DNA of 64,000 bases from Rhabditophanes sp. KR3021 (lineage: Eukaryota; Nematoda; Chromadorea; Rhabditida; Alloionematidae): positions 8,804,001 to 8,868,000 of the forward strand of contig CAUJLY010000006.1 in the NCBI GenBank assembly GCA_963281155.1, given 5' to 3'. Under the pieces are notes generated by a model, which was not told the origin of the DNA, made no database searches, and saw only the letters and a list, made by a program, of their open reading frames with translations. Shown one piece after another: positions 26,870 through 36,130 of the stretch (within the stretch, counting starts at the first letter, position 1; every line of letters starts with the position of its first letter). The translations under genes and the position numbers were made by a program.

Positions 26870-27981
26870 CACAACTTAATGAATATCATTTTTCAGAATT
26901 TTTTTCATTTATATACCAATTTTGAACCTTCATCCTTGGTGTTCTTTCAGGTATCACAAATTTTAACAACACTATAAAAAACTAATCCTCCACCTGTTAC
27001 AAGAATCAAATCATTTTAGTTCAAATATGTACTTACATAACAGTTTATTTTATATAACAGCTAACTTTCTATAAGAGTTAATTCTTTGCACTTTCAAGCT
27101 AGATCATCGTACTACGTTTTTTACACATGATTCGTAAATTACAATATATTAACAGCCATGATTTTTGGTATACCAGCTATTTAAATAACTCATGCTTTAA
27201 ATAAATTAAATGTGGAGGCGTTAAAGGATGTTTAACAACTGGTTTTTTACATGAATTGACCTTTTTATTTATAATCTAATATTTGTTTATTAATTTTTGT
27301 AAATTTATACATACAAAATGCTATTACTTTTTAAATATTTGTAGTGTCTTGTATACAATTGTTCAATTGAAATGATGCCGTGCATATTGTTTCATTCAAA
27401 TTGACGCTCAATCAGAATATTATATTGTTTCGTTGAAATTATTACATATTCTTAATTATTAAATCTTTTGAAATGCACTTTTCTCGCTATTCATTTCAAA
27501 GGTGATATCATTTGAATAACACGACCTCTCATTTGAAAAAGCCTTACGAAGTTCATTACACACGATGACAGCGTAACTCTTATAAAGTCCATTTTTTTAA
27601 TTTAATGGCCTATTATTTTTATTGTGCTTGGCGGAGCCAGTCTTTTGTACAGATTGAACAATACTTATATTCAGTACTCCCAACTCCATATATTCATTAC
27701 TATTACTTATTACCAAAAGTGCCAACTTGATAAGTATGTGTGTGATAAGCATAGCTCTTTGTGGTTTCTACTTAACAATAAAAAAATAATTAAATAGTTA
27801 GTGTTAGGGAAGTGGAGGTGTATTTTGCACAATCTTTATTAAAAAATAATGATTAAGAAGCAACCTCTTCATGTAACCCGTTTGTTTTACAAGCGATTCA
27901 ATTTTTTAAGCGTGCTCGTTTAAAGACAGCGGTTGTCAAAATATGATTAAAAGTAAGCATATCATGGTTTAAATATTGTGA
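26870..27981. other. Intergenic
   Basis: About 1.1 kb upstream of the astacin gene and beyond the 3' end of the F-box-like gene. AT-rich, no ORF or repeat worth calling. Confidence 0.4.
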
Positions 27982-30526
27982 TTAACAGCTCTTAGCATAC
28001 AAATCCCAGTCGGTGATTGATTTTAAATTGACTGCAACTAATTGGCCTTTTGTGCCGATTTTGTTAAAAATGTGCTTGAATCCTGGCTTTAAGCATTTGC
28101 AGTTGCAGGTTTTTGGGAACGTAGGTTCATTTTGACTGATGTGGCAGATATTACGAACAAATAAAGACATACATTTATCAGTAGTGTGAGTGTCTCTAAC
28201 AAGCTCGAAATCATCTTCTGTGTCTGTGTCAGTAAAAGCACTTTCGTCTAAGCAATGAAGCAATGGAGTTGTGGGTTGTGATACATTTTCTTCATCACAG
28301 AGCATTTCATATTTGATGTTCTTTTTTTGAAGACGTTGAATAGTTTCTCTCCTTGGCGACCAATAGGTCCCACACGTGACACCAAGTACTCTCAAGCATT
28401 CGGGGAAAGAAAAGTGCTTGTTCTGCAAGCAGCTTACATATAATTCTTGCAAATTTTCAAACATTTCAAAGGCATCAAGATTTCTTTGGAAAAAGATGGA
28501 TACTTTGGAATAGCAAATTTCTAGTTTTTTGAGATTTGGATAATGGCGATTCAATGGGATTGTGTAAAAATCAAACGATCCCTCACCTACCAATGTTTTA
28601 AATGACTCCACTCTTGTGGGGAAATTATTGAATAGATGTGTCCTGTAACTTTCAACTTGCAAATCATTAGTAGATGAAGGAGAAAATACATAAGTGAACT
28701 CAGTCAAACTCGGTAATGTAGAAAGGTTTTCAAAAGCAGCGATAACATCTTTCTCATCCATTGATGGGCATTTGTCTTCTCTAATTGTCAAATTCTTCAA
28801 TTTAGTGCACTTTTTAACTTTCTTTTCATCCTTAAAATATTCAACAAAGCCTACCAAATCTACTACCATTGCTTCAAACAAATTAGTCGCTAATATTGGA
28901 AGGACATTGGTCCCTTCAAATGTTGTCAAAATTGATATTTCTTTCAAATCATGTTGATGCATTTTAATTTGGAGGATAAAATGATCCATGCCGGTAGTCC
29001 CCTCGAAATTGAATTTGATTCTAAAAAATGACTGCCTTCTCATTCTTGGGGAATGCGATGCTGGCAAGTGCCTGATATACTTTGAGAAGATATCTAGCAA
29101 CTGTTTTCCAGCAAATAACTTCTTGTATTAAGAACTTGCTGATAGAGCATTTAAAGAGGATAAATCGGAGAGATGGGTTATTTGCAAAAAGAGTTTGGTA
29201 ATTGCAACGGAGGTAATTAATAAAACCAACCACACTCATAGGATGCTGGAAAAAAAATTGGAAGGAATTGACGTTTTTAGTTTGAACCGAATTGATAAAG
29301 GTATAATCTTCGTCTTTTCTTGACAAATAAATACATCTTTGATAATTATTGATTGGTCTGATTCGGAAAACTACTGCTTTGATATGCTCGAATGGATCCG
29401 TCATAGCAGAGATCATAATTCCTATCTCGCTTACGGATCGTGTGTCATCAACAAAAACGGCATTATGATAAATATCAAAGAAAAGCTTCCTTCTTGGATT
29501 AATAAGTTCATAACTAATACTCGACTTAAGTAAATCAAGGTCAATTTCGGTAAGGATCCTAAAGCCAAACATTGTTCTCGAATGTATTTTGGTTTCATGT
29601 TCCGAACAAGTGGCGTAGAAGTGAATCATGCCATAGACAAGTATGTCCCCTCCATAGAAACAGATTGACTTACTATCTATGTGCTCTTTCAACATGTAGT
29701 CGTTTTTTGCCATATTGATCAAAGATAAAATATCTACACTACCACGATCTTCGACCTTCCCACAAATCGCCATATTTTTAAGCATTTGATTAGTCAATTC
29801 CAAATCACTCATTACATTATTATAAGTTTCGTTTGATGTGTGCATGGTGTTTTCCTCCGTAGCTTCGTCACTTGAAGCACCTTGGACGTCCAAAGACTTC
29901 AGTAGAATGACTTCATCTGGATGCCTCTCTCCGAGTCTACGACCAGCATATTCCATTTTCCGTTTAGCCACCTTCCGAACATTGTCAGATCCTCCGCGAG
30001 TAGATTCATCTATGACTAAAAATAAGATTGGCAATTAATTACTAATATCGATGCTCTCTTCAAAAGACAATTAAAACTTACAATTACTTTGGCGCAAAGA
30101 TTGTAACATCGCATCAAATACCTGTTGATTATTGTGCATTATCATACTACGCCTCCTATCCTCACACTCTTCGGGTGACAAAATTGATTCTATCTCTCTG
30201 TCCTCGAGTGTATTTCTGTTTTCACCCATTTCGAGCTGATTCTCACCATAATCGGTGGTTGTGGAAATATCAACACTCATGTTTTCTTCAAAATCTTGGC
30301 CGAAATTGAATGTGGTAAAAGAATATTCGCTTCCCAGTGAACTAATGGCACCAAAATTAGCTAAACCATCGTTCTTCTCCTTATTATTATTTTCAACAGA
30401 AACACCTTCACTTGTCAAATTAGAGTTAACGGTACCATCTTTATATTTTGAATTATTAACAAAGCCATCTCCAGTTGTTGACTTATCCTCAACTATATCA
30501 ATACCAGCTCCTGCAATATCTTCCAT
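27982..30526 (-). CDS. F-box/LRR-like protein with a frame break in the middle
   Basis: The start at 30526 (MEDIAGAGIDIVEDKS) follows a splice acceptor GTTAGTTTTAG directly, suggesting trans-splicing. Exon 1 is 30526 to about 30079; a roughly 64-nt intron joins at SN|FIDESTRGGSDN. A Ser/Asn/acidic N-terminus precedes a possible weak F-box (MSDLELTNQMLKNM ... DILSLINMAKND). The C-terminal half has LRR-like lines: LSTLPSLTEFTYVF, HYPNLKKLEICYSKV and MFENLQELYVSCLQN, typical of nematode F-box proteins that recruit substrates to SCF ubiquitin ligases. Near 29018-29023 the frame changes by one base at a TTTTTT run; one T fewer would join FPKNEKAVIF to RIKFNFEGTTG. About 830 aa if joined. The F-box call is inference; the LRR character is moderately clear. 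Confidence 0.55.
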
Positions 30527-33500
30527 TCTAAAACTAACAAAATACTATCAAATAGGCAAGGATGCGATATAGCAAATCTAAAAATGAGATAGAATGACAT
30601 GATTCCAACTATACATATCCAAATATTTTGTTACTTTCTTCTCGACCAAATTGATACGTCAAAAGGGCGTACAAAAGAGACTATATAGGATTTAGCGTCG
30701 GATAATCTGGCTGCTATATGACATTCCATGGGCGGGAGAAGTATGTAATTATTAATAATAGAGCAGATGTAATACATTTTTTACAGAACCAGATTATCGG
30801 ATGCTTAAACTTAATTTTTGGTCATATTAATTCAAAAAGAGAAACTCACGACGTCGTATCTGATACCTCTTTAGCTGGTTTTAAGCAATAGTTTGATAGA
30901 GAACTTTTGAAATGCATAGCAAAAATATGTATATGTTTAAGAATGAGTTCAACCTTAGCGCCAGACACCGCATTTTTGTTATTACGTACAATGGTCAAAC
31001 CAACCCAACAAAAAACAATGCCCATGGAAATTAATGTGTACTTTTATCATGACATAAACAAAAAACACAGGTTAATAATGCGACAATTAGTTTCAATGGC
31101 GGGAGATTTAAACGGTGCACTAAAAAGTGATAGCCAATTATTTGATGGCATTTAATTAGCCAAAATTACCGACTATAAATAATTAATTTGAAAGTATATC
31201 ATCATATTCACGTTCGTTATTCATTTAGATTTTGCTTTTATAAGTATGGTGATATAGAAGGGTTGTTTATAGGATAAACTAAAAACAACTGGTGTTTCTA
31301 AATATTCTAATTTTCGTTGCAACAGTATTTGTGAACATACCCCACAAATACTTCTTTCTCAATTGCTCCCCCATTGATTATCTGTTACGTGTGGGTTACT
31401 CATCAATTGTTCATGAGTTACTTATCAAATTGCTTCTCCTAAGAGAAGCTTCCCAAAAAGTCATGTTAATGTCATGAATAAATAGCTGCACGGAGCTTTT
31501 TAGTAAAAGGCGAAAAAGCTGCTCGTTTTAATGCAGCTATTTAAGACTTGTCCTTTTAACTTTTTCAACCATCTTTTACCTGTTCAATGTTTACGGACTA
31601 ATTGGGTTAGAGTGTTTCAGTTTAAGACGATTGCACATACAATGTACCAACTTTTATTTAATAAACATGGCATACTCAGATCAGTACAATCTTTAGCTAT
31701 AAAAGAAGTTTAGAAATATTACATTAATGTGAAAGTTACTCATTTTTAAAATATGCCGTCTTAAACATATCTGACAAAGATACGACGCAGATTTTGTCAA
31801 CCTGGCCCATTTTTGTTGGAGGTTGATTGTTGGAAGGTGATTGTCGCAGGTTTCCCCAAAATGATATGCTTCTCTCTAAAAACTTCCGTGATCAGTTTAG
31901 ACATTGCATTAATTGAATTTCACAAAAGGGAGAAAATGACATGCAGAATATTATTTAATTATTTGGAATTCATTTATATTTTGACTTTATTTATATTGTA
32001 TTTGCGTCAAAATAACCGACTTTACTCAGTTCATTATTTCTTCTGTTTTAACGAAATAGGTTACAGAACGTCAATTTTTACTGTATCTTTCCGTTTTTCA
32101 ACCTTTTCAACAACTTAATTATTATTCTTTGGTAATGACTGTTATACGGTTGGTGTTATAAAGATGGATATAACAAAAGCACGCTTATCGCTAAAGTTTA
32201 CTGAAAGTCATGTCCGTAATAACAATGGTAAATAGATTTGCATAGCATGTACGATATAAGACATAATAGAGTAAGGAAAATTGATTTAAAACCATACCAT
32301 CTTTGATCGGACTCTTCCATTAATTGAAGTTCGTGATTATCATGCGTATTACTAAATTTTTTCCCCACAGAATTGTAATTTCAGTAATGATTCTGAGCAA
32401 AACACTTTGGATGTATAAACTGGTATATTCTGGCTCATAAATACAAAAAGCATCAGTTTCAACTAGCAATAAAGAACAATTGTTCATCAAATTATCGGGG
32501 CTATCGATAGACTGCATTATCACCAATAGTTAAAATATAATTGTTTCTAAAAATATAGATTGTTAAAAGTAAATAAACGACCCTTTTCAATGGCTAAATT
32601 AAATATCTAAAAATAGACGCTCATTTGTACCTCTAATATTACGTGTTTTGACAACGTGCCGAATTTAGTAAAATTGCCAAAAAGGAGATTGCATGTTTGT
32701 GTAATAAAAGGATCATTTTTCTCTGTTCTGCTTACGTAGCGGTAGGGCACAATTAAGTTAAATGAATACAATTTTTAAGAATTTAAATTACGTAAATGAT
32801 TTGTAAGAACATCATAACGCTTTTTGGAATCACAACATATTTGATATTTCACATAAAAACAGACAAACAACGCAAAAATGGGTGTTATTCCTTGAACATA
32901 CATGTTAGAACTTTGGTTAAAATTTTAACTATAATCCTTAGGAATAAATTTAATTAATATGCATAAGTTTGATTACGACTCCATTCAGATCAAAGGGTTT
33001 GAAAATAATTACTTGGAAAATATTTTTTATTCTTGTTATTTATACCTTGACATTTATAAGGACATAACCTTTATCAATTTTGTATTTAGTGGATTTCAAA
33101 GGACCTTATTAAGGAATTTTTTACTATAATGTCAAATGGGCTTATGACAGTGGTAGAAGTTCTCCCTGTTTACTACATAAATTGTATGCCTTGTTTTAGA
33201 CAAACAAGGCGAATTATTGCCCAATAGGTATCTAAAAATATAATGTCAATGAGCACATGATATAATTTACTACGCTTATTAATTATAAAAGATTTATTAA
33301 TGCAAAGTAAGTGAATGACGTCAATACAACGTACAAATATATTTTGAATTTATGTTGGAGTGCCGAGAAAGTTTTATTAAGCGTTGTTGGGTTTGAACAT
33401 GAGTTCCGAACATCATTGTTGCATGACGATTAATGACATCTTAAAGTGCCAGTGTATTCGATTCAAAATACGATTCTGTTTAACAAATTATCAAAAATAA

Positions 33501-33644: not shown

Positions 33645-33738
33645 TTAGATACTTCTTCAAGTTTCATTCCAAAATTTGCTTGCAGAATTCGTATAGAATC
33701 CTGAACGCATACTAACCTCAAACTGGGTTTTTTAAACC
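33645..33738 (-). ncRNA. Spliced leader (SL) RNA gene, copy 1
   Basis: A trans-splicing donor snRNA. The 22-nt leader (33738-33717) starts GGTTTAAAAAACCC and ends AGTTTGAG, the same length and ends as nematode SL1, and is followed at once by a splice donor GTTAGT. Downstream on the minus strand come a stem CAGGATTC-TATAC-GAATTCTG (8 pairs, one G-U), a canonical Sm-binding site AAATTTTGGA (about 33668-33677), and a 3' stem GAAACTT-GAAG-AAGTATC (33665-33648). This leader, donor, stem, Sm site, terminal stem order is that of an SL RNA. The leader is not canonical SL1 or SL2. The 3' end is estimated. Copy 2 has the identical leader. Confidence 0.9.
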
Positions 33739-33775
33739 GTCTTAGTCTGCTTTACTTAACTTTGTATAGTCGACT
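33739..33775 (-). promoter_or_regulatory. Conserved proximal element of SL RNA copy 1
   Basis: The 37 bases directly upstream of the leader are conserved with copy 2 while more distant sequence is not. On the minus strand the shared pattern is AGTC..CTATA.AA.G...AGTAAA.CAGACTAAGAC up to the first G of the leader. It would fit an snRNA-type proximal sequence element and start site. Confidence 0.6.
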
Positions 33776-34387
33776 TTGGGATAATCGAAAGTAGTCCGTT
33801 GAATCAAAATGCAAACATCCGATAAAAGATGTGTTGTATTCAGATATACTTTTCCCCAACTTGCACATTTCAACAGCTTCTTGTTCACCATTATATAAAT
33901 TATTAAAAAATAGTTAAATAAACAAACTATACATTTGTATCATAATTTATGATGTTGGGTCTTTAAAGGTTATGTATTAATTGGATTTATATATATCTTC
34001 TTCAATATCAGGAAAAGGCGTAGGATTTTCCGTCAAAGAATACAGGCGGCTCCTTTGATGTATGAAGAAACAGTCACAGTTAAGTGTAAAAGCATGTTGA
34101 TCCAAAATTCCTTTAAACAATCATTCTTTTGATTATATAAATTCAAGATTGCTTAAAATAACAAAATTACTGTGTTTGAAATTATAATTGCTAGTGTGTG
34201 GTAGAATTGGATTAAAAACATTTGACATCAAGTTACATTTATATGAAAACGTTTATTTGCAAATGCCAAATCGCTCATCATTTTTTGCTCATTGTATTGA
34301 ATATTATAAGGAATTGGATATTACAAATTAATTTTTTTATTTAATTTAACAGAATCAAAACATGTTTCATATGTATTTAAAAGTCAA
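33776..34387. other. Intergenic between SL RNA copy 1 and the Pmp3 paralogue
   Basis: About 610 bases of AT-rich DNA; the left end may include further SL RNA promoter sequence. No gene was recognised. Confidence 0.4.
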
Positions 34388-34795
34388 CTAATGTTTTGTA
34401 ACAATTAAAGTGTTGGCAGGTTGTTGTGGAATTATATATTGTGGCGGAGCACAATCGATTACTTCACGGTGATGATGATGATGCTGATGATGCTGATGAT
34501 GAGGAACAATAGGTTGGTGAACTACAGTTTCACGAACCACATACTGCGCTGGTGGCGGTATATGTGTATGAATTTGATGAGTTACATATTGAGTGTGAAC
34601 GTGATGATGGTGTGGTTTTTCCTGGAACCAAATTACCCAAGCTCCGTGAATATAAGAAGGAATAATCCCAAGAATCCAACATAAAACATTTATCCAAAAT
34701 GCATCTGTACAGCCTCTATCCATTAAAACGGCCAAACAAGGGCAAAAGCAATACACTATAAATAGGAAACAATTGGCGCAACATCCTTCAGCCAT
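34388..34795 (-). CDS. Pmp3/UPF0057 small membrane protein with His-rich C-terminal tail
   Basis: A 135-aa single-exon protein. Residues 1-58 are a Pmp3 core like the 23.1-kb paralogue: MAEGCCANCFLFIVYCFCPC, then FWINVLCWILGIIPSYIHGA and WVIWFQEKP. The remaining 75 or so residues are His/Pro/Gln-rich, with blocks HHHHVHTQYVTHQIHTH, HHQHHQHHHHHR and PPQYIIPQQPAN. Such a tail could bind metals or be intrinsically disordered, facing one side of the membrane. The gene lies between the two SL RNA genes, all on the same strand. Confidence 0.9.
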   Translation of the reverse strand: MAEGCCANCFLFIVYCFCPCLAVLMDRGCTDAFWINVLCWILGIIPSYIHGAWVIWFQEKPHHHHVHTQYVTHQIHTHIPPPAQYVVRETVVHQPIVPHHQHHQHHHHHREVIDCAPPQYIIPQQPANTLIVTKH

Positions 34796-35581
34796 TTTAA
34801 CAATAGGATTTTGGATTCAAAGTAATATAATGTTCACCGATCAAAAGATGTTGTAAAGTAAATGTGCTTTACCAGAGTTAAGGTCTTTCTTAAATGCTCC
34901 TTTTAAAAAAGAATTTACATGATAATAGTACAAGATGTATACTTATAATATTAAGTGATTAGAAATAAGATTAGGGTGAAAAATGATATTAAAAATTAGC
35001 CACACCAATATAATAAACAATTCTTTCGTTAGAACCGGAAATGCATCTAACTTTTTGAGTAGGAAGTTTAATTGCAATAATAAGATAGTGAAAATGACAA
35101 AAACCTGGGGGAGAATAAGCTAAAAATGTAGATGAATTCTTTTATTTTTACATGAGTTACTGTCGTACCATTGGATGTTTGAACTTGAAAGTGTTTTTTA
35201 ATATACAAAGAAATACTGATTTTAGTTACCGGTCCAAAAGCCATATTTGTAACAGGCAAGAAACTATTTCAATCGAGATATTTAGTAATAAAGAGTGATA
35301 AACACTAATTACTTTAAATAGGTATATCTACTTTTGATGAATAGCCCTGTGTTAAACCAAATACTTTTTTCAAATTATGTTGAATACGCGTACAACAAAT
35401 ATCCTGCTAAGAAAATGTAATTACATACAATTGTACAATCCAACCTGATTAGGTCTACGTGAGCGTGAGAATAAAAAGTCCGTTATCAATGTTCTCGTGG
35501 AAGGAATTTATCCTTAGCAGAAATATTGCTTCTAATTAGTTTTTTCTGGTAAAAATGTGTTGATAACACTGGATAATTTTA
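34796..35581. other. Intergenic upstream of the His-rich Pmp3 gene
   Basis: About 790 bases. The minus-strand ORF at 35068-35259 contains one beta-strand-like line (GPVTKISISLYIKKHFQV) faintly like a Cys-loop receptor exon, but nothing around it supports a gene. Confidence 0.35.
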
Positions 35582-35675
35582 TTAGAGACCTTTTCAAATC
35601 TCATTCCAAAATTTGCTGACAGAATTCATATAGAATCCTGAACGCATACTAACCTCAAACTGGGTTTTTTAAACC
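35582..35675 (-). ncRNA. Spliced leader (SL) RNA gene, copy 2
   Basis: The leader (35675-35654, 22 nt) is identical to copy 1 and is followed by the same GTTAGT donor. The first stem is CAGGATTC-TATAT-GAATTCTG, the Sm site AAATTTTGGA is unchanged, and the 3' stem is GAGATTT-GAAA-AGGTCTC (35602-35585) with a GNRA-type tetraloop. The 3' stem differs from copy 1 at several positions yet keeps its pairing: copy 1 has one mismatch, copy 2 none. This argues for a functional RNA rather than a random duplication. The two copies are 1,937 bp apart in the same orientation. Confidence 0.9.
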
Positions 35676-35712
35676 GTCTTAGTCTGTTTTACTCGGCCTT
35701 TTATAGGTGACT
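35676..35712 (-). promoter_or_regulatory. Conserved proximal element of SL RNA copy 2
   Basis: The counterpart of 33739-33775. Within 37 bases most positions match, including CAGACTAAGAC directly before the leader and the CTATA core about 25-30 bases upstream. Confidence 0.6.
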
Positions 35713-36130
35713 ATGCGAAAGTCGGAAGTAGGACATTCTGCTAACACATAAAGACACACCTACTATATATCTATGCATACATAATAGTTAAATTGAAACA
35801 TATAAATTCTCTGGATAAAGACATATGCTACCAACTTTACTATTTCAACATCTTCTTGTTCACAACCTTTATTTTGAACTGATAAATAACAAAACAATCT
35901 TGGTTATAAAAATATTATATGCGTAATTGCTTTAATGGAAGAGTAAGTTAAATAATCGGAGGATTCCAATGTAAAGTATCAGCTCTTTGTAATTTATGCT
36001 TGATAAAATGACTAATATCTCAGTTATTAAGATCTTCTTGAAATCAGCTAAAGACATTTACGATAAGAGTACTTAATTTATTATGAATATGTTGAAATTA
36101 AGGGATCAGTTTTAAAAGACGAAATTCTAT
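35713..36130. other. Intergenic
   Basis: About 420 bases of AT-rich DNA between SL RNA copy 2 and the LRR relic; nothing recognised. Confidence 0.35.

Follow-up and report, generated by a model that had tools for sequence, protein, structure and literature searches.

The canonical SL1 leader of nematodes is GGTTTAATTACCCAAGTTTGAG. In the available portion of a study of Strongyloides ratti, which belongs to the Tylenchina (clade IV), only SL1-like variants were observed, a precedent for divergent leaders, and the SL1-like exons of Tylenchina follow the rule GGTTT-(5 to 8)-CCCA-(5 to 6)-AG, mostly ending in GAG (PMC1657053). Rhabditophanes diutinus is a free-living nematode of clade IV (PMC10676810). 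We found nothing on a Rhabditophanes spliced leader or SL1 in literature full text (most subscription journals and bioRxiv preprints lie outside this search), and in the available part of PMC10676819 we met no trans-splicing data for Rhabditophanes. Neither the 22-nt leader described below nor its first 14 nt, in DNA spelling, appeared in literature full text, a search that has figures, supplements, most subscription journals and bioRxiv preprints outside it.

The window, that is, the whole stretch of 64,000 nt analysed here (GC content about 32%), contains two loci that a sequence-only reading had proposed to be minus-strand SL RNA genes 1,937 bp apart with an identical, noncanonical leader, and for which it had suggested folding, a covariance-model search and a genome-wide copy count as checks. 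Our own reading of the sequence confirmed the leader, donor, hairpin, Sm site and terminal stem that it had described. The leaders start at 33738 (copy A) and 35675 (copy B), both on the (-) strand, and each copy has the same 22-nt leader GGTTTAAAAAACCCAGTTTGAG, then the donor GTTAGT, an 8-bp hairpin at RNA positions 36-43/49-56, the Sm-site-like AAATTTTGGA, and a 3' stem. Copy B occupies 35582..35675 (94 nt by alignment to Rfam SL1), with the leader exon, an exact 22-mer, at 35654..35675, the 8-bp stem II hairpin at 35620..35640 (from pairing across the family and the fold), the Sm-site-like element at 35605..35614, aligned to AAAUUUUGGAA of Rfam SL1, and stem III, with the 4-nt loop GAAA and covariation across the family, at 35585..35602. 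Upstream of it, on the same strand, are a TATA box at 35698..35705 (-30 to -23) and an SL-type proximal element at 35713..35731 (-56 to -38) with 2 mismatches. Copy A, a full-length match to Rfam SL1, occupies 33645..33738, with a leader of the same letters at 33717..33738, stem II at 33683..33703 (from sequence reading, family pairing and the fold), the Sm-site-like AAATTTTGGA at 33668..33677 (from sequence reading and the Rfam SL1 alignment) and stem III at 33648..33665; its TATA-like box, TATACAAA, is at 33761..33768 (-30 to -23) and its proximal element, with 2 mismatches to CTACTTCCGATTNTCA, at 33776..33794 (-56 to -38). With the best register used, stem III has 7/7 pairs in copy B and 6/7 in copy A, and every scored feature is kept in both copies. 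On the same strand, the interval between the two SL genes holds an ORF for a Pmp3-family membrane protein (PF01679, 34388-34816).

The leader has the general form of a nematode SL exon, 22-23 nt with GGTTT...CCCA...GAG followed by a GT donor. By eye, it differs from the canonical SL1 22-mer at 4/22 positions. With 6 nt between GGTTT and CCCA, 5 nt between CCCA and AG, and the end GAG, it falls within the S. ratti and Tylenchina SL1-like rule, so the leader is of a kind already known from clade IV.

Comparison with Rfam gave a divided outcome. A permissive scan over 3,501 bases listed 3 matches, of which the best two were to SL1 (RF00198) at exactly the proposed sites, both full length, 35582-35675 (model positions 1-103, 22.6 bits, E 0.68) and 33645-33738 (19.3 bits, E 3.6), and the third was an unrelated snoRNA at 13.5 bits; both SL1 scores nevertheless miss the gathering score of 75 that the strict SL1 class requires. 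At the Rfam gathering cut-off no SL family was found in the window, where U5 alone was detected, and genome-wide, in a search run without a positive control, RF00198 gave 0 matches among the best 50 of 14192 candidates scored. As the scores are weak but both matches run the full length of the model at just the sites proposed, we treat the RNAs as resembling SL RNAs and not as strict SL1. They share with RF00198, which is of the C. elegans type, the order of parts, the length, the AAAUUUUGGAA site and a 3' stem with a 4-nt loop, but their donor is GUU where RF00198 has GUA, and the 10-bp leader-donor stem is reduced.

Within the window alone, counts fall short of significance: the first 14 nt of the leader were found 2 times at up to 2 mismatches versus 1.12 expected, and the upstream element 3 times versus 1.27 expected. 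The case therefore rests on the genome-wide family. The suggested copy count, over 44,845,725 bases in 6 scaffolds, found the leader 134 times with up to 3 mismatches tolerated, and the reversed pattern 2 times. Our family statistics rest on 122 copies read among these matches, with about 12 left out. The leader is exact in 113 of them, has an extra seventh A (23 nt) in 4 and is otherwise changed in 5, so that 117/122 are exact or longer by one A; a GT donor follows in 121/122, and an Sm-type site lies between two stem-loops in 120/122, as judged from sequence only. The leader (exact or with one more A), proximal element, TATA-like box, GT, Sm site and stem III are combined in 99/122 copies. 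The canonical SL1 leader had 0 matches in the genome at up to 2 mismatches. The first 119 copies read comprise 100 distinct 99-mers, so the constancy of the leader does not come from recent copying alone. The exact 22-mer was found 0 times in bacterial and archaeal contigs, and a looser leader pattern 0 times in viral contigs. The number of SL copies is ordinary for a nematode: C. elegans has ~110 SL1 genes (PMC1657053) and Pristionchus pacificus 187 SL1-type genes (PMC7986045).

Since a search with the leader favours constant leaders, we also searched with a promoter pattern (proximal element, gap and TATA box, built from copies already read, with up to 2 mismatches allowed). It has 78 matches in the genome and 0 for the reversed control, and in 78/78 cases the leader is present 53-55 nt after the start of the pattern, 74 times exact, 3 times with A7 and once with one mismatch. 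Copy B is among the 78; the TATA-like box of copy A is too distant from the consensus for that copy to be counted. In the 74 promoter-defined copies with an exact leader, columns of the donor region average 99.5% identity, those of the Sm stretch 98.9%, those of stem II 93.4% and those of stem III 88.8%, and the 3' flank averages 49%.

These figures bear on whether the copies belong to a dispersed family of repeats or pseudogenes that derives from SL genes, with few active members elsewhere and a dead pair in the window. The copies are indeed scattered and segmentally duplicated, copy B having a twin at C6:8678360 that is 98.4% identical over 871 bp, and 23/122 copies miss at least one scored feature, including L061, which has no recognisable promoter. 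Against this, 99/122 copies retain all scored features while the 3' flanks, in the promoter-defined set, have drifted to 49%, the 3' stem has compensatory changes, and the window pair has lost none of the scored features; we consider a decayed family exceedingly improbable. The Rfam matches, the genome-wide family and the covariation together back the proposal that these are nematode SL RNA genes whose leader is a variant of the SL1 type, and we are very confident that both loci are functional SL RNA genes of R. diutinus with a divergent SL1-like exon.

The structure of the RNA was examined in an alignment of the 100 distinct copies, and the covariation counts are not independent because all of these copies are paralogues of one genome. 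In stem III (74-80/85-91), 93.7% of cells are paired, and there are 36 double-change cells with compensatory changes in 7/7 pairs, compared with a shuffle mean of 10.4 and maximum of 19; 0/500 shuffles attain the observed values, and six slid registers all score lower. Stem II is paired in 94.5% of cells across the 100 copies, with no excess of covariation over shuffles. At its base, the pair 31-61 changes from G-C to A-U in 8 copies, and the three pairs at this base have a shuffle mean of 1.1 double-change cells and a shuffle maximum of 4. The Sm-site columns are 96-100% identical at positions 62-70 and 89% at 71. Folding separated the two window copies: copy B folds better than 200/200 shuffles (z -2.60), but the fold of copy A is not clearly beyond shuffles (z -1.45, 14 of 200).

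The 10-bp leader-donor stem of Rfam SL1 has 4/10 pairs broken in the Rhabditophanes RNA, which departs from the class in this respect, and the first 31 nt fold with -2.6 kcal/mol, versus -9.1 for the Rfam consensus. Our folding models thus indicate that the canonical leader-donor stem is weakened and largely lost in Rhabditophanes. When the whole consensus RNA is folded with the Sm site open, two alternatives, 1-5/9-13 and 10-13/22-25, differ by no more than 0.2 kcal/mol, and a third, in which the donor is paired with the Sm site, is 1.4-1.6 kcal/mol lower than the open-Sm pair. This donor/Sm helix (17-25/63-71), which is part of the minimum-energy fold, was set aside because it would mask the Sm site and because no copy has any of its pairs altered at both positions.

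Upstream of the 119 copies, the consensus is CTACTTCCGATTTTCACAT at -56 to -38, TATAAAAG at -30 to -23 and ACTAAGAC at -8 to -1. We compared this with the snRNA genes of the same genome, counting full-length genes and leaving out two lower-scoring U6 matches and two U2 fragments. In all 18 full-length U2 (11) and U5 (7) genes a TAACCCA element begins 58-60 nt upstream. The 4 full-length U6 genes, compared by eye with the SL promoters, have TAACCCACC in 2 cases and GGCCCACC in 2, somewhat farther upstream, the TAACCCA element being found in 2/4, and their TATA box is TATATAAAAG in 3/4 and TATGTAAAAG in one. What the SL and snRNA genes have in common is thus a proximal element ~60-70 nt upstream and, for U6, a TATA box; what differs is that the SL genes carry CTACTTCCGATTTTCACAT in place of TAACCCA or GGCCCACC. 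The window supplies a comparator in its U5 gene at 31430..31550 (-), 2.1 kb from copy A (77.5 bits, cut-off 40), which has TAACCCA at -59 and no SL-type element. Two other U5 genes, at C6:4895511 and C6:5301188, sit 2.6-2.7 kb from SL genes as well, so that 3 of 7 U5 genes, the window gene included, are near an SL gene.

The idea that the SL-type element is a common snRNA element was rejected, as the SL matrix scores under the shuffles' 95% mark on each of the 18 U2 and U5 upstreams. Conversely, the U2/U5 matrix has a median of -3.4 on 110 SL upstreams versus -2.3 on shuffles; the best single SL upstream, 1 of 110, reaches 14.0, exceeding the shuffled maximum of 10.1, and is perhaps a copy with both elements. 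The letters TATA occur at -35 to -18 in 9/18 U2/U5 upstreams as well as in 95/119 SL genes, so the two groups are told apart more clearly by the proximal element. As a class, the SL genes carry their own proximal element together with a TATA box, and not the U2/U5 element.

A U6-type TATA box raises the question of whether the SL genes depend on RNA polymerase III for their transcription. The SL box TATAAAAG at -30 to -23 does resemble the TATATAAAAG of 3/4 full-length U6 genes, and in Plectus sambesii the TATA box is at Pol III, not Pol II, snRNA genes (PMC6436959). However, 118/119 SL copies contain an internal run of 4 T, and TTTT occurs at +92 to +115 in only 13/119, versus the T-run ends of the 4 full-length U6 genes, and C. 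elegans SL1 is a Pol II transcript (PMC11822377). The internal T4 runs and the scarcity of TTTT at +92 to +115 favour Pol II, and we regard transcription by Pol III as very unlikely. Most likely, then, RNA polymerase II transcribes these genes from the SL-specific proximal element and TATA box.

Taking promoter and structure together, we put forward a combined proposal that we hold only tentatively and with some doubt. The SL promoter may be a private class, its element having diverged from that common to U2, U5 and some U6 genes and a U6-like TATA box having been gained, so that SL supply would be controlled apart from that of the snRNAs, and the leader-donor stem may have been replaced by two alternatives of nearly equal energy, in which the 5' GGUUU and the donor GGUU compete for the same AACC, possibly as a switch that exposes the donor.

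Each SL gene would give rise to an RNA of ~94-98 nt, with the divergent SL1-like exon as its first 22 nt, followed by the GU donor, a stem-loop, a site for Sm proteins and a 3' stem that often has a GNRA-type loop. Such an RNA would, like nematode SL RNAs in general, bear a trimethylguanosine cap, be loaded with Sm proteins and act as an snRNP, from which the leader would be trans-spliced onto acceptors in pre-mRNAs. Two gene pairs in the genome are relevant here, and their names are our own reading beyond the Pfam families: what we take to be rpl-27a (PF00828) is followed by a presumed rpa-1 (PF00428) with 224 nt from stop to ATG, and a presumed tct-1 (PF00838) follows one of two rpa-0 genes at a distance estimated by eye as about 190 nt. 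Acceptor-like sites were also seen by eye before ATGs, such as TTTCAG one base before that of rpl-27a. The two rpa-0 genes (L145, L146) are near-identical and 19 kb apart on C4, and only one of them has tct-1 within the following 1.5 kb. In C. elegans rpl-27a/rpa-1 and rpa-0/tct-1 are each an operon, and potential operons have been reported in S. ratti (PMC1657053). The adjacency of two conserved operon-type gene pairs makes trans-splicing of the leader onto mRNAs likely in R. diutinus. The leader would then cap single genes as well as downstream genes of co-transcribed pairs such as rpl-27a/rpa-1 and rpa-0/tct-1, and it would predict the 5' end of many R. diutinus mRNAs, as the sequence-only reading had anticipated.

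It is also conceivable that this leader serves one class of mRNA only, and that a second, SL2-like family resolves the operons, as Rhabditina put SL2-like leaders on downstream genes (PMC1657053). However, S. ratti, which belongs to the same clade, relies on SL1-like leaders for operon resolution (PMC1657053), and the R. diutinus genome contains only 3 leaders that keep CCCANTTTGAGGT and have a non-A in the middle stretch. We therefore think a second family unlikely, and a single SL1-like leader acting at both single genes and operons remains our preferred reading.

Canonical SL1 was not observed among the S. ratti clones (PMC1657053), nor did it turn up in the Rhabditophanes genome at up to 2 mismatches. 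The RACE clones of S. ratti contained 19 leader variants (PMC1657053), whereas one leader is found in 113/122 Rhabditophanes genes, although these counts are unlike in kind, the former being of mRNA ends and the latter of genes found by their leader or promoter. A near-uniform leader beside 19 S. ratti variants raises the question of whether leader diversity arose with parasitism. If, as is probable, the leader tags the 5' ends of R. diutinus mRNAs, it would help to annotate operons, start codons and the ends of transcripts in this free-living nematode related to Strongyloides, and the separate SL promoter is a case in which a divergence of SL from snRNA transcription can be tested. As far as the literature searched shows, the genome-wide census of SL genes, their nearly uniform leader, their separate class of promoter and the weakened stem I are new.

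The sequence-only reading had described the genes as dispersed single copies outside any 5S array. This is correct in the window, but elsewhere 46/122 placed SL copies are in ~240-bp tandem neighbours, and 7/47 scored 5S genes are within 1 kb of an SL gene. The 122 placed copies stand alone or form mini-arrays of 2-4, no ~240-bp run being longer than 4. The 7 of 47 compare with a mean of 0.48 and a maximum of 3 in 500 jittered trials, although the independent events are fewer than 7, as some of the pairs look like duplicates of each other. A scan of 20 of the 90 SL loci turned up one further 5S gene within an SL mini-array (L072, C6:357-358k). Compared with the 5S-SL1 array of C. elegans, the number of SL genes is similar and some adjoin 5S, but the Rhabditophanes SL genes are single or in mini-arrays and the 47 scored 5S genes are dispersed; these were scored among 650 candidates, so further 5S genes, and even an array, may exist. 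One long tandem unit of SL and 5S was not seen among the 122 placed SL genes, in an assembly that may hide collapsed arrays. Oscheius tipulae, in which 5S and SL1 are unclustered, provides a precedent (PMC8022731). An old 5S-SL linkage may have broken up here, with promoter-plus-gene units spreading by DNA duplication.

The regions within 200 kb of a scaffold end, which make up 5.4% of the genome, contain 44/122 placed SL copies. The scaffold ends themselves lack a TTAGGC array in 12/12 cases (L102-L113), each strand having 0-1 copies of the repeat within 4 kb; for S. stercoralis, short reads likewise yielded no telomere repeat, and 105-111-bp repeats have been proposed from long reads (PMC12134996). 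Three of the four copies with a 23-nt, seven-A leader (L027, L028 and L140, but not L098) have the start of a 5S gene 256-511 bp away. The duplicate that includes copy B spans 35211-36081 of the window and C6:8678360-8679230, and a second part of the window, 27925-32671, has an inverted copy of 98-99% identity at about C6:8.889-8.894 Mb.
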